The notes under the pieces were generated by a model. It saw only the letters and a list, made by a program, of their open reading frames with translations, was not told the origin of the DNA and made no database searches. This document shows, piece after piece, positions 3,833-60,446 of a stretch of DNA of 64,000 bases. The position numbers and the translations under genes were made by a program. The stretch comes from Acidobacteriaceae bacterium. GTDB lineage: Bacteria; Acidobacteriota; Terriglobia; Terriglobales; Acidobacteriaceae. Location: positions 558,001-622,000 of the forward strand of contig JAOAPC010000024.1 of the NCBI GenBank assembly GCA_025462735.1, written 5' to 3'. How positions within the stretch are numbered: the first letter of the stretch is position 1; every line of letters starts with the position of its first letter.

Positions 3833-4228
3833 GTGAAAATTATTGTGTTGTTCATGCTCGTCGCAGTTCTGCAGGGAGCGGCGTTTGCCCAGAAAACCCA
3901 AAACCCGGAACTGCGCAATGAGCATGCCGCGAACCCAAAGAAGACGCAGTCACACAAATCTAAGTCAGTAACGACTCTTCCCGTAAGGTCGAAGGGCGAC
4001 TCGGCCGCCGAATTGGCGAAAATTGAGCAAAGCGGCACTCGGAAAACCGGCGCGCACAGATCGACTCGAGCAAAAGCTGCTCTCCCTTCCTCACAAACCG
4101 GGGCTGCAGCGCAGGGCAAGAACAAACCGGTAAGGTTTTCCCATCATTCGTCTCATGCTGCCGGCAAGGCTCCGGTTAACGGAGGCCGTACAGCAGCTTC
4201 ATCCCGACCACCAAAAACCTTGCGGTGA
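3833..4228 (+). CDS. small basic secreted protein of unknown function
   Basis: A 131-residue protein starting at GTG with a clear signal peptide (MKIIVLFMLVAVLQGAAFAQ, likely cleavage after AFA) and a strongly basic, low-complexity mature part rich in Lys, Ser, Thr, Ala and His. No domain is recognised and little secondary structure is expected. The gene is a single transcription unit flanked by minus-strand genes, converging with the GT2 gene 8 bases downstream. A cationic, disordered periplasmic or surface protein is the only description the sequence supports. Confidence 0.55.
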   Translation: MKIIVLFMLVAVLQGAAFAQKTQNPELRNEHAANPKKTQSHKSKSVTTLPVRSKGDSAAELAKIEQSGTRKTGAHRSTRAKAALPSSQTGAAAQGKNKPVRFSHHSSHAAGKAPVNGGRTAASSRPPKTLR

Positions 4229-4236
4229 GCTGAATG

Positions 4237-4992
4237 CTAATCGCGAGCGTTTTGGCGATTCACTACGGTTGGCTTCACTAAGCCTTGCTCTCTCGTTTGA
4301 ACCGGCTCTTTCACTGAATATTTAAGCAAGCACCAGAGTGCGCGTACTCCATCTCTCCATCCGATTTTCTTGCCTTCCTCGTAAGTGCGCCCCCAGTAGC
4401 TGATGCCGACTTCGTATATCCGCAGCCGGCGTTTCGCAACTTTTACCGTAATCTCGGGCTCGAAACCAAAACGATCTTCTTCAATGGGAATCGATTGAAT
4501 AACTTCTCGCCGAAAAACTTTGTAACAGGTTTCCATATCGCTCAGATTGATGTTGGTCAGGCAATTGGAAAGCAGCGTCAGCAGGGAGTTGCCGACAGAA
4601 TGCCAGAAGTAAAGTACTCGGTGTGGGCCGCTACCAAGAAAGCGTGAGCCGTACACGACGTCCGCTTTTCCTTCTAGCAGCGGGCCAAGCAGCGAGGGAT
4701 ATTCTCCGGGATCGTACTCGAGGTCGGCATCCTGAATGATCACAAAGTCGCCTGTCGCCTCCTGTATGCCACGTCGCAGCGCGGCACCCTTTCCCATGTT
4801 TTGCGGCTGGAAGAAGACTTTGACCTGTGGCTTCGCAGAATGCAGCTCTTGCAGGATTTCGCGCGAGCCATCTTGCGATCCATCATCGACGCAAAGCAGC
4901 TCGATTTCCAATGGCACCGCGAGCACACGCTCGACAACAGAACGCAGGGTGGCGCTCTCGTTGTAAATAGGCATGACGACTGAAAGTTTCAC
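4237..4992 (-). CDS. family 2 glycosyltransferase, DPM1/polyprenyl-phosphate type
   Basis: A 251-residue GT2 enzyme starting at GTG 4992. The GT-A signature is plain: [12 protein letters not shown] at the N-terminus, VDDGSQDGS for nucleotide binding, and QDADLEYDP with the metal-binding DxD. Length and sequence flavour match dolichol-phosphate mannose synthase-like enzymes that move a sugar from a nucleotide donor to polyprenyl phosphate. No membrane anchor is seen at the C-terminus, unlike DPM/ArnC fusions. A GT39-type membrane protein that could use such a lipid-linked sugar is encoded at 16452-17921, though the two are not adjacent. The exact sugar cannot be told. Confidence 0.8.
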
Positions 4993-51708: not shown

Positions 51709-51936
51709 TTACTTTCGCGGTGGCAGCCCTGCGCCCATGTGCTTCAGGGCGGTTTCGACGGAAGTGAGAATCACGTCCAGGCCTAGGAAAACCAGATCAA
51801 CTCCGGCGAGTGAGATGACTACGTTGCCGCGCAAAACCACACCCTGGTTCAGCACATGATCCAGAATGTCGAGCAGAGTCATCTCGTCGCTGGGGTCGTC
51901 CCCGGCGAAAACGACGGCATTTGTAGGTGCGCTCAC
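51709..51936 (-). CDS. GvpA-family protein (GvpJ/M/S-like)
   Basis: A 75-residue protein with the GvpA core: TLLDILDHVLNQGVVL, then GNVVISLAGVDLVFLGLDV, then SVETALKHMGAGL. The spacing of helix, strand, strand, helix is that of gas-vesicle proteins. The GVVxxGxxxISxAGVDLVxLG pattern is closer to accessory GvpJ/M/S than to the structural GvpA, which has DAWVRVSLVGIELL. It starts at GTG overlapping the GvpF/L stop (GTGA). It is the last gene of a three-gene operon with GvpF/L and an ArsA/Get3-like ATPase; other gas-vesicle genes are absent nearby. Confidence 0.82.
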   Translation of the reverse strand: MSAPTNAVVFAGDDPSDEMTLLDILDHVLNQGVVLRGNVVISLAGVDLVFLGLDVILTSVETALKHMGAGLPPRK

Positions 51937-52703
51937 TTTGATCTCACTTTATTTTCCGGACGCGACACGAACGAATAAGGTGGCCATGGGCCGGTGCATT
52001 CAATCCGGTGGTCTTGCGCCCATTCGCGGGCAAACTTCTCGAGTAACGATTCGAGCTTGTTCCGCTTCGAGCGCCTAACCAGCAGCGAGGTCTGGAATGC
52101 CAAACCTCGTTGTCCGCGGCTCATGTTTCCGGCCGACGCGGTCTCAGTCGCAACACCAGCGAGGGCCCGCTCAAACTTCAGCATCTCATCGCGAGCGGCC
52201 GGTTTGCGCCTGCGATGTGGCAGCAGGGCGGCTTTGGCCTTCAGGTAATCCTTGCCGCTCCGAACTTTGGAAATCGTCGGAATTGCAGGTTGAATAGCGA
52301 ACACCTTAACGCCCCATTCGTCGGCGCCCTTGATCCGTCCAAAATCTTTTTTCAGGCCGCGCACACGCTTTGCAATGTGCTTGCAAAGAGATTCTTCCGT
52401 GCGAAACACGGCGCCAAAACGAGTAGGCAGAATGTCGGTGTGCCGCGCGATGGCAGATATGACGCGCTGGTGCGCAACGCTAGTTTCGGCCAGCCAGTCG
52501 AGGTTCTCCATGTTGCGAGCGAGGTTTTTTTCAAAATCTAACGCCGGCACGCGGCTAATCCAGCAAAAAACTCCATCGCAGTCGATAGATTCGATTGGCG
52601 CGAAACGGTCCACTCCAACCAGCTCTGGAAGGTCGCGCGGCCGCGATTCCGTGATTCCGTACAGGTACAGCACAGAACGGTCGGTTGTCAGTTCAGCCGC
52701 CAT
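51933..52703 (-). CDS. GvpF/GvpL-family gas-vesicle protein
   Basis: A 256-residue protein of the GvpF/L family: the N-terminal SVLYLYGITESRPRD, ARNMENLDWLAETSVAHQRV and ILPTRFGAVFRTEESLCKHI segments match the family closely, as does the C-terminal CTGPWPPYSFV. In gas-vesicle systems these proteins bind GvpA-type subunits and help assembly. Its ATG overlaps the end of the double ATPase gene by 16 bases, and its stop overlaps the start of the GvpA-like gene. It is the only GvpF/L copy in the window. Confidence 0.85.
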   Translation of the reverse strand: MAAELTTDRSVLYLYGITESRPRDLPELVGVDRFAPIESIDCDGVFCWISRVPALDFEKNLARNMENLDWLAETSVAHQRVISAIARHTDILPTRFGAVFRTEESLCKHIAKRVRGLKKDFGRIKGADEWGVKVFAIQPAIPTISKVRSGKDYLKAKAALLPHRRRKPAARDEMLKFERALAGVATETASAGNMSRGQRGLAFQTSLLVRRSKRNKLESLLEKFAREWAQDHRIECTGPWPPYSFVSRPENKVRSK

Positions 52704-54616
52704 AATTCGTGTGTAATAGTGCGCAGTCCGCTCGCCCCCGCGATTTCATCCGGAAAATTCCGGATGGCAAAGACCTCTTTTGCAGAATGGCGTTTCCTCA
52801 GCTTTTCCAAAACTGATGCCTGCCACTCCGCCGCAACCTGGCAACGGGCGCACCCGGCGGCGTCCTTCGCGAAAATGATTCGATTCACAAACAGCGCCTG
52901 CGGTTTTAGTCCGAGACGATCTAATTCTGTAAGTAATCTCTCAGTTTCACGATCTGGCAGCGGTTCGGGCAACATGACGGCAAAAACACCTACTTCACCA
53001 GAGTTCTTGAACGCGTTCAATAATTCGCGTGCTCGCAATTCCAGCTCTGCAATCCGGACCGCGGCATTACGGGCAAGCGCCAGTTTACGGTGCACCGCCA
53101 GGCTTTTCAACAACAGCCGCGACCAAGTCACGATTCGCCCTGGCATGCGCAGCAGTTCGAGTGCATGTCCGGTAGGTGCCATGTCAATTACGATCTTCCC
53201 CGATGTGCCCGCCCGCAAATCGACGATGCGGAAGATTGCGAGCACCTCGTCCAGGCCAGGCGGCACAATATCCAGCAACGCCGACAACATCTGCCTCTCA
53301 AACGAGAGATCCACGTGTACTCCGGAATGTTCGCTGGTAGTTGCGGAATCAACTTCTTCTTGAATCTCAGCTACCCAGCTCCTAAATAGCGCGATTGAAT
53401 CCAGCTCCGAAGCTCGGAAACGTTTGTCGCCGAGGACCGGTGTCGGAGTATCACCGATTGCGGTCTGGAAAATGTCATCCAGAGAGGGCGCAGGGTCGAC
53501 GGAGCAGATTTCGACCGGTGAGTCGGAAGTTTTCCGCGTGTGAAACCCCAATGCGGCGGACACCGTAGTCTTTCCCACTCCGCCTTTTCCTATCACGAAC
53601 GAAAGCCGCGACTTCAGCTCCGGCCATTGCGCGGCTGCTGGTGTCCCCCGTTTGTGTTTCGACCTGGGTAACAGCGGATCAAGTCGAAGACGTTTCCCGG
53701 CAAAAACGTGCTCCCCGAATTGATGAAGCGCATCCGTTCCCATGATCGGGAATCCGGGGTCTTCGGCGACGTGCAGCTCCGTGGAAGAAAATTGCTTGTG
53801 TAAAAAGGATTCCGCAGCCCGGGCCGCCGCGACTCGCCTCTTGCAGAAATTACATTTTCCGGCGCGGCGCACCACCCGGTTCAACACGATGGACTTCAAT
53901 TTTAGAGTGGGATTTGTTTCTCCTACTTCTTTTATACAGCGCACGGATTCATTCAACGCGAACTTCTCGGCCGTGGTCACTAGAAATAAGTCAGAGGCAG
54001 AGAAGGCTTGCGCGAGTTGCTCCACTTTGCCGCGCCAGTCTTCAATAAGTTCTGGCTCTCGCGCACGGGTTCTACCGCCAAAGTGCTCGGCCAGCGCTCG
54101 ATCTCGGCCGGCAGCGATTTCGAGAAAATTTAGTACCCGAACGAATTGCTCAGGTAGGCTAAATAAACGAAGGGTGTGGCCGAAGGGTGCAGTGTCGACC
54201 ACGATGTGCGAATATTTCCCAGAGTCAATCGCATCTCGGATAGCAAGCAGCGCCGCTATTTCAGACATTCCCGGCAGCGCTGTTTCCAGTAGAGGAGAAA
54301 TTTCTTTTGCTGAGAATAAAGACCCGCGCTCCACAATCTCCAGAATGGATTGCTTGTATGTGCGAAAGAAATCGCCGAACAGGGCGGAAGCATCCAGTTC
54401 CCACGCCCACAGCTTGCCGCCGGCCTTGGTCGGCACAGCCTTCGGAGATCCGCCCAGCTTTCGTTGCAGAACATCTCCCAGCGAATGCGCGGGATCTGTA
54501 GAAACCAGGAGCACGCGGTTGCGGAAATTCTGCAGCGCGGTTCTAACTGCATAAGCGGTCGCAACCGTGGTCTTGCCTACGCCACCTTTCCCGACGAAAA
54601 ACGCGAGGCTCGGCAC
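52688..54616 (-). CDS. double ArsA/Get3-like ATPase
   Basis: A 642-residue protein made of two complete ArsA/Get3 units. Unit 1 has the deviant P-loop GKGGVGKTT (9-17), DPAHSLGDVL (41-50), DTAPFGHTLRL (141-151) and CNFC (255-258). Unit 2 has GKGGVGKTT (343-351), DPAPSLDDIF (374-383), DMAPTGHAL (479-487) and CARC (589-592). The CxxC pair is the zinc-clamp signature of Get3/TRC40 dimers, here within one chain. Arsenic-binding cysteines of ArsA are not apparent, and no arsenic genes are near. Its tight overlap with GvpF/L suggests it serves a hydrophobic GvpA-type client. Confidence 0.85.
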   Translation of the reverse strand: MPSLAFFVGKGGVGKTTVATAYAVRTALQNFRNRVLLVSTDPAHSLGDVLQRKLGGSPKAVPTKAGGKLWAWELDASALFGDFFRTYKQSILEIVERGSLFSAKEISPLLETALPGMSEIAALLAIRDAIDSGKYSHIVVDTAPFGHTLRLFSLPEQFVRVLNFLEIAAGRDRALAEHFGGRTRAREPELIEDWRGKVEQLAQAFSASDLFLVTTAEKFALNESVRCIKEVGETNPTLKLKSIVLNRVVRRAGKCNFCKRRVAAARAAESFLHKQFSSTELHVAEDPGFPIMGTDALHQFGEHVFAGKRLRLDPLLPRSKHKRGTPAAAQWPELKSRLSFVIGKGGVGKTTVSAALGFHTRKTSDSPVEICSVDPAPSLDDIFQTAIGDTPTPVLGDKRFRASELDSIALFRSWVAEIQEEVDSATTSEHSGVHVDLSFERQMLSALLDIVPPGLDEVLAIFRIVDLRAGTSGKIVIDMAPTGHALELLRMPGRIVTWSRLLLKSLAVHRKLALARNAAVRIAELELRARELLNAFKNSGEVGVFAVMLPEPLPDRETERLLTELDRLGLKPQALFVNRIIFAKDAAGCARCQVAAEWQASVLEKLRKRHSAKEVFAIRNFPDEIAGASGLRTITHELWRLN

Positions 54617-54703: not shown

Positions 54704-55141
54704 TCACGGCGTCTCCGGCCCCGTCCTTGTCAGTAATCCGATCCTCTGTACTCCCGAAGTTCGGGCGATGTCGATGGCATCGGCGACGAATTCAAAATCC
54801 ACGTCATCGTCGCCTTTGACGAACGCCACGCGCTCGACCCGTCCAGTGAAAATTTCAGAGAGGCGATCGTGCAGCTGCTCCCATTTCACCTCATCGTCAT
54901 TGATCTTCAACGACGGCTGCTGATTGTTTCCCGCCCATGCGACCTGGATCACAATGGTTCGTTCGGGCTGAGGCGGAGACTTTTCGTTTGCAGGTTGCGG
55001 AATCTGCGCCTCCAGTCCCTTCTCCTGCGACATTGAGACCACCACCATGAACACAATGATGAGCACGAGCAAAATATCAATCATCGGTGTGATGTTGATC
55101 TCTGCTCTGAGCGGACCACGGCCTGCTGTCGAGAATGCCAT
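54704..55141 (-). CDS. ExbD/TolR-family biopolymer transport protein
   Basis: A 145-residue protein with a short N-terminus (INITPMIDILLVLIIVFMVV), one membrane helix containing the functional Asp of PMID, and a periplasmic domain. ExbD/TolR proteins work with an ExbB/TolQ motor to use the proton gradient for energising outer-membrane processes. ExbB and TonB genes are not in the window. The gene is 87 bases upstream of the ArsA-like gene on the same strand and diverges from the cytochrome gene, but a link to either is not supported by its sequence. Confidence 0.88.
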   Translation of the reverse strand: MAFSTAGRGPLRAEINITPMIDILLVLIIVFMVVVSMSQEKGLEAQIPQPANEKSPPQPERTIVIQVAWAGNNQQPSLKINDDEVKWEQLHDRLSEIFTGRVERVAFVKGDDDVDFEFVADAIDIARTSGVQRIGLLTRTGPETP

Positions 55142-55251: not shown

Positions 55252-56382
55252 GTGCGTGCTCGCATTAGCATCTCGATAAATCACATCGTTTTTTTGTTGT
55301 TACTTGCTCCGGCCTTGTTATTCGCTCAAGCTGGAAATCAATCAACCCTGCATCTCGATACCGGCGAGCACATTTTCAAGTCAGCATGCATAGCCTGTCA
55401 CGGTCCTGATGGCAGGGGCGCGCCGGAAACCATAGCCGGATTCGAGCGACCCGACTCGTTCCCCGACTTCACCCGCTGCGATCAGACGACCGCGGAGCCC
55501 AACATCACATGGCAGGACGTGATCACGCATGGCGGACCTTCTCGGGGATTCTCACAAATCATGCCCGCGTTCGGAGATGCTCTAACTTCTGAGCAGATCA
55601 GTAAGGTGGTCAAGTACATGCGAAGTTTCTGCCGGGGCAAGGGTTGGGCGCGTGGAGAGTTGAATTTGCCCAGGGCGATAGCTACCGAAAAAGCATATCC
55701 CGAGGACGAAGTTGTAATTTCGAGCGGGTTTAACGTGCGGGGAGGGCCGGGCGTATCGAATGACGTTATTCACGAGCAGCGCTTCGGCGTGAAAAACCAG
55801 ATTGAGGTTGACGTTCCCATTAACTTTGTGGATCAGAACCACGTCTGGCATGGAGGCGTCGGCGATACGACTCTAGGCGTCAAGCGAGTAATGTTCTCGA
55901 GCCTGCGTTCGGGATCGATTTTGAGCTTGCAGGGATCGGTCATTGTGCCGACCGGCAACCGGGCCCACGGCCTGGGCAGTGGAACCACGACATTCGAAAC
56001 GTTTGCCGCTTTTGATCAGCTTTTTCCGACGAATACTTTTGTGCAATTTCAAGCTGGCGCGGATTTACCACGCCACACTGATATATCTCCTCAACCGGTC
56101 TTCTGGCGAACTGCAGTCGGCCAAAGTTTCGCGGCGAATCACGGGCTCGGCCGATTATGGTCGCCAATGGTGGAGTTTTTGGCCAACAGAGATCTGACCA
56201 CTGGAGCCCGGACAAACTGGGACGTGTTGCCACAGATGCAAGTGACGATCAGCCACCGGCAACACATCAAAGCTGACTTGGGCGTTCGCACGCCGGTCAG
56301 TAATACGGCGGGACGACCCGTGCAACTGATGTTTTACATTCTCTGGGACTGGCAAGACGGCAAGTTGACTGAAGGTTGGTGA
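55252..56382 (+). CDS. cytochrome c / outer-membrane beta-barrel fusion protein
   Basis: About 376 residues. After a signal peptide (HIVFLLLLAPALLFAQA) comes a monoheme cytochrome c domain with CIACH and a downstream methionine in IMPAFGD as a likely axial ligand. The remaining ~240 residues alternate amphipathic strands (VISSGFNVRGGPG, FVQFQAGADLPRHTD, MQVTISHRQHIKADLGV), resembling an outer-membrane barrel of the phenol-degradation MetA type, and end in an aromatic (Trp). Start is uncertain; GTG 55252 gives the best signal peptide. The stop overlaps the start of the pentaheme cytochrome gene. The two are probably made together. Confidence 0.72.
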   Translation: MRARISISINHIVFLLLLAPALLFAQAGNQSTLHLDTGEHIFKSACIACHGPDGRGAPETIAGFERPDSFPDFTRCDQTTAEPNITWQDVITHGGPSRGFSQIMPAFGDALTSEQISKVVKYMRSFCRGKGWARGELNLPRAIATEKAYPEDEVVISSGFNVRGGPGVSNDVIHEQRFGVKNQIEVDVPINFVDQNHVWHGGVGDTTLGVKRVMFSSLRSGSILSLQGSVIVPTGNRAHGLGSGTTTFETFAAFDQLFPTNTFVQFQAGADLPRHTDISPQPVFWRTAVGQSFAANHGLGRLWSPMVEFLANRDLTTGARTNWDVLPQMQVTISHRQHIKADLGVRTPVSNTAGRPVQLMFYILWDWQDGKLTEGW

Positions 56383-58004
56383 TGCCAAAGCGCGTGTGTT
56401 GTTTATCTTTTCTGGCAAGCTTCCTAATTGCGGCGCCCACGCTGATGAGTTCCGCGCAGCATCCCGCGCTGGACCGGAAATTTCAAACATCGGACCGCTG
56501 CCTGGCGTGTCATAACGGAATGGTGACATCTTCGGGACAAGATGTTTCGATCGGAATCGATTGGCGCTCGGGCTTGATGGCGAATTCCGCGCGCGATCCA
56601 TATTGGCAGGGTAGCGTACGGCGAGAATCGATCGACCATCCTGAATCGCGCGCCAATATCGAAGATGTCTGCTCCACCTGCCACATGCCCATGTCTCACT
56701 ACGAGGCAAAATGGCAGGGCCGCAAGGCTGAAGTCTTCTCCCATTTGCCTTTTGACGCTGACCCCAAAAAATCCGCTTCGGCCGAAGATGGCGTGTCGTG
56801 CTCAGTATGTCACCAGATCAGCAAGGAGAAATTGGGAACTCGAGAGAGTTTCAATGGCGGATTTGTTATCGATCCCCCGGTTGCTCAGGGCAGTCATCCG
56901 GAATATGGTCCGTTTGCGATTCAAGCTGGACAGCAGCGCATCATGCAGACCTCCACCGGAGGGTTTCATCCCACCGAAGCCGCCGCGCACATCCGAGACT
57001 CTGCGCTCTGCGGAACCTGTCACACGCTGATTACGGAAACTCTCGGAGCTGGCGGGAAGGTTGTCGGGTCATTTCCGGAACAGATGCCGTATCAGGAGTG
57101 GCTGCACAGTGACTATCCCGACAAGAGCACTTGCCAGTCATGCCACATGCCCGAAGTACACGAGGCCGTACCTATTACCACAGTTCTTGGCGTGCCCCGC
57201 ACCGGAGTACATCGCCACAGTTTTGTTGCAGCGAATTTTTTCGTAGAAGGCATGCTGAATCGATATCGCCAGGATCTTAACGTTACAGCGCCGCCGGAGG
57301 AGTTAACTGCAGCATCCGAGAGAACGGTTGACTTTTTGCAATCCGAATCTGCTCGGGTGAGTATTCGGGACATAGGCATAGTCTCGGGCAGTCTTCAGGC
57401 GCAGGTGTTTGTGCAGAACCTCAGTGGCCACAAACTCCCGACCGCATATCCTTCACGCCGCGCGTGGCTCCATGTGGTCGTCAAAGATCACGACGGACGC
57501 ACGGTGTTCGAGTCGGGCGCGCTGAATCCCGATGGTTCTATTCAGGGAAACGATAATGATGCTGACCCGGCGCGCTTTGAACCTCACTATCGCGAGATCA
57601 CCAGCAGCGATCAGGTAGAAATCTACGAGCCAATTCTGAAAGACTCAGACGGGCACGTGACCACCGGCCTGCTCTCTGCAGTCGGATACCTCAAAGACAA
57701 CCGGCTGCTACCCTCCGGATTTGGCAAAGCTACTGCGGAAAAAGATATTGCAGTGGTTGGCGAGGCCGCAGAAGATCCCGACTTTACTGACGCGGGAAGC
57801 GTGGTGAAGTACTCGGTGCCTGTCGGCGATGCGCAGGGTCCGTTCCACGTCGAAGCCGAGCTGTGGTATCAGCCCATAGGATTTCGCTGGGCTCACAATC
57901 TTGCTCCCTATGACGCGCCAGAACCCCGCCGCTTCGTCAGCTATTACGATTCGATGGCTTCGAGCACAGCTGTAGTGTTGGCGCGGTCGGAAGCGACCAA
58001 GTGA
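56382..58004 (+). CDS. secreted pentaheme cytochrome c (c554-like)
   Basis: A 540-residue exported protein with a signal peptide (FLASFLIAAPTLMSSAQ). Five CxxCH heme sites are visible: CLACH, CSTCH, CSVCH, CGTCH and CQSCH, all in the first ~260 residues, with extra histidines nearby as likely axial ligands. The C-terminal ~280 residues are beta-rich, Ig-like, and carry no heme. The ATG is formed within TGATG at the stop of the fusion-cytochrome gene, so translation is coupled. Such proteins carry electrons in the periplasm or at the cell surface; acceptor and donor are unknown. Confidence 0.88.
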   Translation: MPKRVCCLSFLASFLIAAPTLMSSAQHPALDRKFQTSDRCLACHNGMVTSSGQDVSIGIDWRSGLMANSARDPYWQGSVRRESIDHPESRANIEDVCSTCHMPMSHYEAKWQGRKAEVFSHLPFDADPKKSASAEDGVSCSVCHQISKEKLGTRESFNGGFVIDPPVAQGSHPEYGPFAIQAGQQRIMQTSTGGFHPTEAAAHIRDSALCGTCHTLITETLGAGGKVVGSFPEQMPYQEWLHSDYPDKSTCQSCHMPEVHEAVPITTVLGVPRTGVHRHSFVAANFFVEGMLNRYRQDLNVTAPPEELTAASERTVDFLQSESARVSIRDIGIVSGSLQAQVFVQNLSGHKLPTAYPSRRAWLHVVVKDHDGRTVFESGALNPDGSIQGNDNDADPARFEPHYREITSSDQVEIYEPILKDSDGHVTTGLLSAVGYLKDNRLLPSGFGKATAEKDIAVVGEAAEDPDFTDAGSVVKYSVPVGDAQGPFHVEAELWYQPIGFRWAHNLAPYDAPEPRRFVSYYDSMASSTAVVLARSEATK

Positions 58005-58050: not shown

Positions 58051-59112
58051 TCATCCTGCCGGCTCCGGAGCGGGCGTAGTCGGAGGAGCGGGAGTAACCA
58101 GCGGAGGCGGCGGATACATCAAGCGTGCAAGCAGCGGATAGCGCGCCGCAAAAAAGTAAATCGAGTAAGCAGGGAAGAAAACAATTACCGGAACCGAAAC
58201 CAACGCTATCGCATAGAACGCGACCATCAGAAATATGCTGCCCGCGACCACGGCCGCGGTAATAGTGAACACGTTCCAGGTCAGTCCCGCCGCCTTTCCC
58301 GCCAGTACCGTTATCGCCCCCAGTCCCCCGAAAGGAATCAACAAAATGATGATCACGATAAAGGCCAGTATTCCAATTCCAATCCCAGCGCCAATGGTCA
58401 GGATCACTTTCATGCCGCCATAGCCGGCATAGGATCCCTTTTCCGAGCCCAGCATTCTCCACAAGCGACGCCAGCCTTCGAACGCTGAAAGGTTTTCCAG
58501 AGCCATCTGGGGAACAACAAAATCCTTGGTGAATACTTGCACAACTATCGAAGCCACCATCCAGAACATAAAGGCAAAAAACACGAAGATGCCGGTCAGG
58601 ATCAAGGGCGCCAAGTGTTGCCGGGGAGCAGTAAACCAGCCCAGAAGGAATGCAGCCAAGGCAGGAACTCCGATTAGAACGGCCATTCCAGCAAGGGTCG
58701 CCAGCACAAATACTATTTGCCAAACGAAGTATTGCAACGCGGGTTCGCGGCGTTCGCGCCACATGCGGCCCAGCTCGCATTTTTTTGCAATTACGCTGTC
58801 AAACAAAACGAACCGCATTCTGCTGTTCAGGTAGATGAGCAGCAACCCTATTAATGGAAGTGTAATCAGTGCGATCGCCAGCAACGGACCAAGCAGTGCC
58901 CAGTTGGGAGGTCCAACAAATGCGAAATCACGATGAGTGGTTCCCGTGTGTGATGGAATATTGAAGTTACAACCGCCGCCTGAGCTCATTTCGCCTGCAA
59001 ACAACCCGACTAGTGCGAGTCGTGTCCACTGGCCAAAACGAAAAGGCCGGAAGAGTTGCTGTTTGGTGTGTTCGAACGCAGGGCTTATCGAATCGACGGC
59101 GGATATGGGCAC
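58051..59112 (-). CDS. multi-span membrane protein of unknown function
   Basis: About 353 residues with six or seven hydrophobic segments and a Pro-rich C-terminal tail (PPPPLVTPAPPTTPAPEPAG). No catalytic motif or transporter signature is recognised; the general look is that of a DUF-type integral membrane protein with glycine-rich helices. GTG 59112 is preferred, with GAGGTG about six bases upstream; the frame continues to ATG 59190, which coincides with the last base of the preceding permease gene. It is probably co-transcribed with the two MacB-type permeases. Confidence 0.65.
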   Translation of the reverse strand: MPISAVDSISPAFEHTKQQLFRPFRFGQWTRLALVGLFAGEMSSGGGCNFNIPSHTGTTHRDFAFVGPPNWALLGPLLAIALITLPLIGLLLIYLNSRMRFVLFDSVIAKKCELGRMWRERREPALQYFVWQIVFVLATLAGMAVLIGVPALAAFLLGWFTAPRQHLAPLILTGIFVFFAFMFWMVASIVVQVFTKDFVVPQMALENLSAFEGWRRLWRMLGSEKGSYAGYGGMKVILTIGAGIGIGILAFIVIIILLIPFGGLGAITVLAGKAAGLTWNVFTITAAVVAGSIFLMVAFYAIALVSVPVIVFFPAYSIYFFAARYPLLARLMYPPPPLVTPAPPTTPAPEPAG

Positions 59113-59189
59113 GGAGCACCTCGCGAAGGTTGCTTCAATGCGATTGAAAGTACAGCCCCAGGCGGGGCCGGTCAACCAAATTCTTGACA

Positions 59190-60446
59190 CTACTCGTATC
59201 GCAACGCTTCGACAGGGTCAAGCTTCGATGCTCGCAATGCCGGAATCAATCCACTGATTACTCCGACGAGCAACAATACGAATGTAGAAACTGCCAAGGT
59301 CGCAACCGAAATGTGCAGGTGAATATCACCTCTGCCGGAATCGTCTTCGAACAACGGACCCATCAGCGGAAGGGTGCCGACGCCTGCGGCGACCGCATAC
59401 GAAACCAGCACGCCAATTGCTCCGCCCAAAAGCATGATCAGAAGGGTTTCAGCCAGGAACTGGAGTCGAATGTGACGCTTCCTGGCGCCCAGCGCCCGCC
59501 GCAGTCCGATCTCGCGTATGCGTTCTTCGACTGACACCAGCATAATATTCATCACGCCCACGCCACCTATCCCTAGCGTCAGCGCGCCCACAAACGTTAG
59601 CAGCACTTCGAGGCCAATCGTGATCGCGTCGATTACGGGCCGGAATTCGTCGCGCCCAAACATCTGCAGCGCTTTGGGGTCTGTAGGCGAGAACTGCTGG
59701 CGGGCAGCAAGAGCAGCGAGCACCTGAGCCATCGCCCGCTTCTCGAATTGCGGAGCAATCGGTTCAAACACGAGGACGGCAGCGTATCGCGTGTCCCACA
59801 AATCGCCCGCGGTGGAGTACGGAATCCACGAAGACTCGTCATCGCTCGAAAAATAATTGCTGAGCTGGATTTTTCGCGCCATTACACCAATTACCGTGAA
59901 TCGCACGCCGGAAACCAGCACCGACTCACCTACGGCCGGCCGACCGCTGAACAGCTCCTCTCGCAATCGGCCACCAAGAAAAATCACTCGCCGACGTTCC
60001 AATTCGTCCTCGGCATTGATCCACCGCCCTTCTGAGGGGACCTCGTTGCGCATTTCGCCGTACTCTGGACAAACCCCACGTACCGGGGCCGTTCCCACTA
60101 GCCGGTCCTGATAAGCAATGCCGGGTCGCCGCACGGTTTCGCGGCACGCGTACTTCACCAGAGGGGCGGTGGCCTTCACCATCTCGAGATCTTCCTTCTC
60201 AAGGACGACCTTCTTGCCCGCACGCTGGCCTCCAGGTTGCTCGCTAGTCTGCTGCGGCCAACAGATGACGACGCTCTTGCCGAATGCATCGAAGCCGCCC
60301 ACCAAAATGTTGCGGAAGCTGCTGCCGTACGCGATTAACAGCGTTACCGTAGCGATGCCCCACACAATGCCGAGCATGGTCAGAAAGGTGCGCGTGTAAT
60401 TGCGCTTCAGCGCTATCCAAGCTTCGCGGATGATTTCAAGCAACAT
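59190..60446 (-). CDS. MacB-type ABC permease (second of a tandem pair)
   Basis: A 418-residue FtsX/MacB permease: an N-terminal helix (~20-42), a MacB_PCD periplasmic domain (~45-260) and three C-terminal helices (~285-405), with the loop VSVEERIREIGLRRALGARKRH and the ending PALRASKLDPVEALRYE. It is a paralogue of the next upstream gene (60555-61817), from which a 108-base gap holding an inverted repeat separates it. Neither has an ATPase next to it, so they may form a heterodimer with a remote MacA/ATPase. Confidence 0.88.
   Translation of the reverse strand: MLLEIIREAWIALKRNYTRTFLTMLGIVWGIATVTLLIAYGSSFRNILVGGFDAFGKSVVICWPQQTSEQPGGQRAGKKVVLEKEDLEMVKATAPLVKYACRETVRRPGIAYQDRLVGTAPVRGVCPEYGEMRNEVPSEGRWINAEDELERRRVIFLGGRLREELFSGRPAVGESVLVSGVRFTVIGVMARKIQLSNYFSSDDESSWIPYSTAGDLWDTRYAAVLVFEPIAPQFEKRAMAQVLAALAARQQFSPTDPKALQMFGRDEFRPVIDAITIGLEVLLTFVGALTLGIGGVGVMNIMLVSVEERIREIGLRRALGARKRHIRLQFLAETLLIMLLGGAIGVLVSYAVAAGVGTLPLMGPLFEDDSGRGDIHLHISVATLAVSTFVLLLVGVISGLIPALRASKLDPVEALRYE

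Follow-up and report, generated by a model that had tools for sequence, protein, structure and literature searches.

The window analysed here is a stretch of 64,000 nucleotides from an Acidobacteriaceae bacterium (GenBank assembly GCA_025462735.1, contig JAOAPC010000024.1, positions 558,001 to 622,000 of the forward strand); all positions given below count from its first letter. It contains two adjoining genes (Table 1): (i) the first encodes P0001, a fused protein in which a monoheme cytochrome c domain precedes a predicted outer-membrane barrel; and (ii) the second encodes P0002, a secreted cytochrome with five CxxCH heme-binding sites. Judging from sequence comparisons and predicted structures, there is about an even chance that these two proteins constitute a self-contained redox gate of the outer membrane.

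Table 1. Features of the gene pair, in window positions
Feature	Position	Strand	Basis or remark
Fused protein P0001, 376 residues	55252..56382	+	Open reading frame, Pfam, alignment, AlphaFold2 model
CIACH heme-binding site of the fused cytochrome domain	55387..55401	+	Residues 46-50; one CxxCH in each of 79/79 aligned sequences
Linker/plug, residues 129-152 (GKGWARGELNLPRAIATEKAYPED)	55636..55707	+	Most conserved stretch of P0001
Outer-membrane barrel domain, residues 153-366	55708..56349	+	12 long predicted strands and one short
GTGATG junction	56379..56384	+	Fusion stop overlaps pentaheme start
Pentaheme cytochrome P0002, 540 residues	56382..58004	+	Exactly five CxxCH; signal peptide; C-terminal beta domain (about 324-540)

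Four segments follow one another in P0001, whose N-terminus is hydrophobic: (i) a signal peptide (about residues 1-26); (ii) the monoheme cytochrome c domain (36-128); (iii) a linker (129-152); and (iv) the barrel (from about 153 to 366). The GTG codon at 55252 is a plausible start, the reading frame itself being open from 55135. The CIACH motif that an earlier note on this DNA had reported near the N-terminus is indeed there, as the only one in the whole frame, and it falls inside the cytochrome c domain recognised by Pfam at residues 36-123 (PF13442, E 2.9e-11; PF00034, E 8.4e-9). In the barrel, the family PF13557 (Phenol_MetA_deg) matches residues 197-343 with E 0.0019 and 18.7 bits, below its gathering cut-off of 22.

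A scan of species genomes returned 281 relatives of the fusion, 80 of which were kept as named loci. The alignment of fusions (A3) contains 79 rows, P0001 included, and "invariant" refers hereafter to these rows or to the 72 rows kept in the corresponding alignment of pentahemes (A4), which includes P0002. Cytochrome c models of Pfam match all 79 fusions, and PF13557 matches 26 of them at E<=0.01 (best 1.4e-8). His50, Met104, Cys76 and Cys127 are invariant; the constancy of the first two suggests His/Met ligation of the heme, and the two cysteines perhaps form a disulfide. Two of the 80 loci were left out of A3: L134, cut by a contig end, and L082, in which an internal deletion of about 40 residues removes the region of the proposed Met ligand. 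In the genome of the latter (G002, also recorded as locus L045), this shortened fusion stands beside an intact pentaheme gene.

The AlphaFold2 model of the fusion, built with 79 sequences from the window and the loci, reached a mean predicted local distance difference test (pLDDT) of 90.1 and a predicted template modelling score of 0.84. The helices fall between residues 38 and 124 and the strands, twelve of them long and one short, between 153 and 366; 19 of the 21 ten-residue blocks from 151 to 360 have a pLDDT of at least 93, and confidence is lower at residues 91-110 (pLDDT 71-80), the region that holds Met104. Fold comparison aligned the cytochrome domain with KustC0563 (5mxy; Z 12.3, root-mean-square deviation 1.8, 83 residues) and the barrel with FapF (5o65; Z 22.9, deviation 2.4, 219 residues) and with the COG4313 channel (4rl8; Z 22.1, deviation 2.4, 215 residues). 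Pfam, the model and the fold matches all agree with the earlier proposal that one polypeptide combines a heme domain with a predicted barrel. The same note had spoken of strands ending in Trp: barrel strands are predicted and a C-terminal Trp column is invariant across the 79 fusions, yet this Trp lies past the last predicted strand (358-366). FapF also has 12 strands, so that it shares with the COG4313/Phenol_MetA_deg channels the barrel type predicted for P0001; neither FapF nor those channels are known to carry a heme domain.

The COG4313 channel is described as a barrel of 12 strands with an N-terminal stretch of some 14 residues tucked into its lumen; without this plug, the lumen would be only about 10-12 Å wide (PMC4493636). 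In P0001, the conserved linker probably takes the place of that plug, because the fold alignment with 4rl8 begins with model residue 144 on chain residue 2, at the start of the segment that enters the lumen. The mean column entropy of the linker is 0.77, against 1.38 for the cytochrome domain and 1.42 for the barrel.

The overlap of the two genes, also pointed out in the earlier note, is real: the fusion gene, which stops with TGA (56380-56382), has one base in common with the next gene if the latter starts at ATG, and four if it starts at an in-frame GTG. In 65/65 scored loci, no more than 15 bases separate the fusion stop from the closest pentaheme start, and in 49 of these the two overlap, most often by four bases (39 loci); 70 of the 80 loci entered this count, five of them unscorable, and its use of the nearest start codon favours short gaps. 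Fusion and pentaheme are, as far as the sequences tell, apparently coupled in translation. The pentaheme protein had been put forward as the partner of the fusion, which the wider comparison bears out: its gene comes directly after the fusion in 79 of the 80 named loci, the remaining one (L079) ending at a contig edge. The two genes likewise adjoin in 16 of the 17 loci fetched from a set of 100 genomes near the window's own, the exception being L047 (genome G079). The locus-to-locus distances of the two proteins are correlated (r 0.84, 70 rows), something that common descent alone could yield.

On both sides of the pair, the neighbouring genes lie on the minus strand (upstream, a gene for ExbD at 54704-55141; downstream, a frame at 58051-59190) and, hence, the pair seems to stand alone. 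No conserved third gene was found: in the 17 loci, no family of neighbours reached more than three loci once antisense or overlapping frames of the pair itself were set aside, and among frames of at least 100 residues within flanks of up to 5 kb in the 80 named loci, the largest family was present in nine. This family corresponds to a long secreted protein encoded at varying places and on varying strands. In a scan for promoters and terminators, promoter-like sites were about as frequent as in shuffled sequences and terminator-like sites were less frequent.

As the earlier note had it, P0002 is a secreted protein with five CxxCH sites (residues 40, 97, 140, 210 and 251), and five such sites occur in each of the 72 pentahemes of A4. 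Nine loci were left out of this alignment: L059, which has a foreign C-terminal tail, and L066, L079, L088, L089, L093, L116, L131 and L133, where the gene is cut or absent at a contig end. The AlphaFold2 model of P0002 (72 sequences, pLDDT 91.1) matches the penta-heme cytochrome c552 of Thermochromatium tepidum (5ze8) with Z 25.8 and a deviation of 2.9 over 351 aligned residues (model residues 31-540, 21% identity), and the shared fold includes the C-terminal beta domain. Foldseek gives E 5.9e-17 for this match, and the next solved structure among the matches listed reaches only Z 7.2. In sequence, the relationship is distant (the P0002 profile reaches c552 at E 3.2e-5), with an H-x-x-P-T motif common to the P0002 family and the c552/PHC proteins. 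The model for Geobacter ExtKL (NF040886) matches 50 of the 72 members at E<=0.01 (best 1.3e-10), P0002 itself scoring 16.4 bits against a cut-off of 250; the NrfH model (TIGR03153) matches more members (60 of the 72) and, in consequence, part of the ExtKL matches must reflect a common multiheme likeness.

By profile and predicted fold, P0002 is a distant relative of c552 and ExtKL, that is to say, a cytochrome of the PHC kind. The PHC family is described as a grouping of Geobacter ExtKL, GSU2801 and proteins of cable bacteria (sPHC and lPHC), whose small members resemble c552 in structure; PHC proteins are counted there as potentially catalytic, and their likeness to the archaeal nanowire protein AvECN is noted (PMC11976967). 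Apart from the histidines of the CxxCH sites themselves, the invariant ones are limited to His86, His279 and His350, and His364 and His402 are conserved in 93% of the 72 rows; at least two of the five hemes thus have no invariant histidine of this kind as a candidate ligand. A nitrite reductase of the NrfA type was considered and rejected: CxxCK occurs in 0/72 members (a test that would miss NrfA variants with CxxCH), and the fold match with 8bcx is partial (Z 6.6, 176 aligned residues).

Two further observations concern pentaheme-like genes. In L036 and L068, the intact pair is followed, at 4008-4687, by two short frames that resemble a C-terminal portion of the pentaheme, from about residue 335 to 465, and represent a broken partial duplicate. 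On the other hand, L152 (5701-8331, 876 residues) and L154 (6589-9303, 904 residues) encode proteins with six CxxCH sites and a pentaheme-like part, and no fusion was present in the stretches fetched around them.

Some relatives of P0001 have another partner. Twelve fusions lacking an adjacent pentaheme were examined (L047, L138-L147 and L156/L157); two of their host genomes, G183 and G202, also hold a fusion paired with a pentaheme elsewhere. In eight of the twelve (L047 and L140-L146 are listed), the next gene encodes a secreted protein of about 215-286 residues that carries two characteristic sites, LH and C-x2-H-x-W. Both are invariant in the six rows aligned, and a Met follows the W in five of them. 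The ligands of type-1 copper are His, Cys, His and Met. Against the PDB, a profile of the six sequences matched two copper proteins, a nitrite reductase (E 4.9e-5) and a blue protein of type 1 (E 6e-5); the top match, NOMO2 (E 2.3e-8), falls on the C-terminal domain, which Pfam finds to be carboxypeptidase-regulatory-like, and the Copper-bind model stays below its cut-off. As the copper model is under the Pfam threshold and the best match belongs to another domain, the alternative partner is a candidate type-1 (blue) copper protein, likely but not proven.

In a tree built from 54 fusions (40 taken from the 79 in A3 and 14 others; midpoint root; two rows with long branches), the type of partner is clustered: pentaheme-paired rows require 2 changes, against 11.0 in shuffles, and rows with the cupredoxin-like partner 4, against 7.6. 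In this tree, L079 was labelled as pentaheme-paired although the contig stops before reaching its partner, L147 was labelled as having no partner for the same reason, and support is not firm for several deep forks, such as those near L047 and L048.

The pair recurs widely, chiefly in Acidobacteriota, as a search for it in other genomes, suggested in the earlier note, made clear. In the window's own genome, the fusion occurs at full length once, and two further matches span the cytochrome part only. Among the 100 genomes near it, a full-length fusion is present in 18 (its own included, as well as the G002 copy with the internal deletion); a larger tally of 77 fusion matches also counts plain cytochromes. 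The pentaheme is found at E<=1e-20 in 17 of these genomes, all of them among the 18 holders of the fusion. The spread is patchy, with the fusion in 3/8 genomes of the window's genus (G000-G007). Across 297 sampled Acidobacteriota genomes, the fusion is present at E<=1e-40 in 33 and the pentaheme in 31; in 25 of these genomes, the window's own included, the pentaheme scores at least 640 bits, and the fusion adjoins it in all 25. In the remaining six (L148-L153), no fusion lies beside the gene in the stretches fetched, of which L150 ends at a contig edge. In G274, the pentaheme gene is broken by a contig boundary, and the fusion adjoins the first of its two parts.

By their titles, 75 of the 80 loci belong to Acidobacteriota groups, one is named only as "bacterium" and four come from metagenome-assembled genomes of Gammaproteobacteria or Rhodanobacteraceae. 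Hosts include Acidipila rosea DSM 103428, Granulicella aggregans M8UP14, Occallatibacter savannae AB23, and strains KBS 83, 89 and 96. Of the four proteobacterial loci (L112, L121, L124 and L132), the three that were placed in the tree (all except L121) nest inside Acidobacteriota, and the presence of the pair in such genomes may reflect either transfer or mis-binning. In the class of the L121 genome, a fusion match was found in 2/185 genomes, one being that genome itself; the gene is, therefore, rare in that class.

As regards known systems, the layout of P0001 seems closest to that of Cyc2. Both have a signal peptide, a single CxxCH in an N-terminal cytochrome domain and a barrel in the same chain, and the length of P0001 lies above the 365-residue rule for Cyc2; in either case, the monoheme domain would be placed at the periplasmic mouth of the barrel. 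Cyc2 oxidises Fe(II) and is used as a genome marker for iron oxidisers; its heme is argued not to span the membrane, so that the substrate must enter the pore (PMC8406198). Nevertheless, P0001 is not a member of that family: the defining AXPXFAR[QK][TY] motif upstream of the CxxCH and the PXL motif four residues after it (searched for within 3-5 residues) are both missing in 79/79 fusions, the predicted barrel class is different, and twelve long strands are predicted instead of 16 (PMC8406198). The fusion also differs from Cyc2 in having a conserved pentaheme partner. Cyc572 is a further fused cytochrome-porin (PMC10654088). The earlier note had named MtrAB and the Geobacter complexes as precedents and had missed Cyc2, the nearer one.

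A looser parallel than Cyc2 is provided by ExtI, a barrel with 12 predicted transmembrane segments encoded beside the pentaheme ExtKL, kindred to P0002, and whose loss impairs the reduction of selenite and tellurite (PMC5877670). A heme domain goes unmentioned for ExtI in the parts of that paper concerned with it, and the Geobacter extHIJKLMNOPQS cluster comprises 11 genes (PMC5877670), while the unit described here has two, with the gene for P0002 right after a cytochrome-barrel fusion. MtrAB, PioAB and MtoAB share with the pair an outer-membrane barrel and a multiheme cytochrome, but MtrB-type conduits have 26 strands and an inserted decaheme (PMC8406198) and P0001 has twelve long strands. 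The MtrB_PioB model (PF11854) has no match in P0001 or in its genome, a weak absence given that 0/14 control genomes passed either. Among the open-licence papers listed by literature searches, mostly the top few of many matches, none describes this pair in its title or abstract opening, which is weak evidence of novelty.

The redox gate would operate as follows. The linker would plug the barrel and place the heme domain at its periplasmic mouth. A small redox-active compound would enter the lumen, or bind in it, and exchange electrons with the heme domain; electrons would not cross the membrane on a chain of hemes, the compound in the lumen reaching the monoheme instead. The monoheme would, in turn, trade electrons with the pentaheme or, in relatives, with the likely cupredoxin, and this swappable partner might connect to a periplasmic pool or do catalysis. 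With a pentaheme of low potential, as c552 is called in the title of its paper, next to a monoheme that is presumably His/Met-ligated, electrons would pass more easily from the pentaheme through the monoheme to an oxidant outside than the other way. The nature of the partners supports such a gate, in that every partner recognised by sequence, whether pentaheme or cupredoxin-like, is a redox protein. Besides, predicted lumen-facing positions have a lower entropy (1.10; 68 positions) than lipid-facing ones (1.60; 66 positions; Mann-Whitney p 5e-4); this stronger conservation of the lumen side, exceeded only by that of the linker, argues for a barrel with a working lumen that is more than a mere anchor. 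The constancy of the fusion and of its pairing across genomes, and the precedents of Cyc2 and ExtI/ExtKL, likewise speak for the gate.

Several points weigh against the gate. The facing of residues was assigned by hydrophobicity and not by coordinates, and is ambiguous for some strands, so that the entropy comparison is indicative only; in addition, the needs of plugging or folding could equally conserve residues of the lumen. The best match of the barrel, FapF, is a secretion channel and not a redox protein. Three of the 12 fusions lacking a pentaheme (L138, L139 and L157) have no recognised redox neighbour, while a fourth (L147) ends at a contig edge. Finally, COG4313 channels are proposed to let hydrophobic substrates out laterally and to admit hardly any polar ones (PMC4493636) and, in consequence, a route through the lumen is not certain.

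The main rival to the redox gate is a plain anchor, in which the barrel does no more than hold the monoheme cytochrome at the outer membrane. Its lumen would be sealed by the plug, the pentaheme would act as a periplasmic reductase or electron store exchanging electrons with the monoheme, and nothing would cross. A narrow and probably plugged barrel agrees with it, as do the few invariant histidines of the pentaheme, which leave room for an open heme; what speaks against it is that the lumen-facing residues and the linker are conserved beyond the rest of the barrel, though folding or plugging could explain this as well. On balance, such an anchor is unlikely, but it has to be taken seriously. 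An uptake route after the manner of ExtI, with the barrel importing an oxidised small molecule (e.g., an oxyanion), the pentaheme reducing it in the periplasm and the fused cytochrome feeding or gating the process, appears improbable. The clustering of ExtI with ExtKL, the phenotype of its loss and the matches of 50 pentahemes to the ExtKL model would fit this route; against them stand the very low score of P0002 on that model and the still more numerous matches to NrfH, the lack of a conserved third neighbour comparable to the other ext genes in either set of loci, and the likely cupredoxin of some relatives, which bears no signature of an oxyanion reductase.

The earlier note had instead proposed a possible minimal conduit resembling MtrAB, with the pentaheme as partner; electrons would then cross the outer membrane on a chain made of the fused heme and an inserted pentaheme. 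The conserved pairing and the overlap of the genes are compatible with that idea, but the fusion has a single heme, on the N-terminal side of the barrel; its twelve long strands contrast with the 26 of MtrB-type conduits; and a pentaheme of 540 residues, with the large beta domain predicted for it, should be too big for a lumen of the COG4313 width (PMC4493636). The structure prediction that the note had called for puts the barrel in the class of FapF and COG4313, apparently too narrow for a heme chain if its width is that of the COG4313 relative. Barrel class and single heme rule the conduit out as the leading explanation, and we consider it very improbable altogether. Equally hard to credit is a pentaheme that polymerises into a wire with the fused barrel as its foot in the outer membrane. 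P0002 does have the fold of c552, for which a kinship with AvECN is reported as suggested (PMC11976967), but c552 is not known as a filament, and the pair offers no apparent way for a folded pentaheme to leave the cell. The idea that the barrel itself exports the pentaheme, taken from amyloid secretion by FapF, was rejected by reasoning: c-type cytochromes receive their hemes in the periplasm, prior to folding, and the folded protein should not fit.

Elsewhere in the window, gas-vesicle matches occur on the minus strand (51763-54616). They comprise a GvpL/GvpF gene (51933-52703; PF06386, E 3.3e-40) and a GvpA-type match (51763-51879; PF00741), with two more GvpA-type matches on another contig; beside the GvpL/GvpF gene lies a frame for an ArsA ATPase with two matched stretches (52688-54616; PF02374).

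Returning to the redox gate, a broader proposal can be made tentatively, at somewhat below an even chance: after Cyc2 and Cyc572, the fusion would represent a further, independent lineage of fused cytochrome-porins, of the 12-stranded COG4313/FapF type, spread through Acidobacteriota and provided with interchangeable secreted redox partners (a PHC-like pentaheme or a cupredoxin). In bacteria that are not known to breathe metals, it would pass electrons through the outer membrane to or from small redox-active compounds, for example humic or phenolic shuttles or dissolved iron. Granulicella and Acidipila, among the cultured hosts, are aerobic organotrophs, which, if right for the pair's hosts, favours soluble redox partners over obligate metal respiration. 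Since the conserved unit consists of only two genes, it should be easy to express and to knock out, and the swap between pentaheme and likely blue copper protein offers an internal control for which part transfers electrons. If the proposal is true, outer-membrane redox chemistry would be widened to Acidobacteriota, cultured strains included, with the fusion present in about one in nine of the genomes sampled (33/297).

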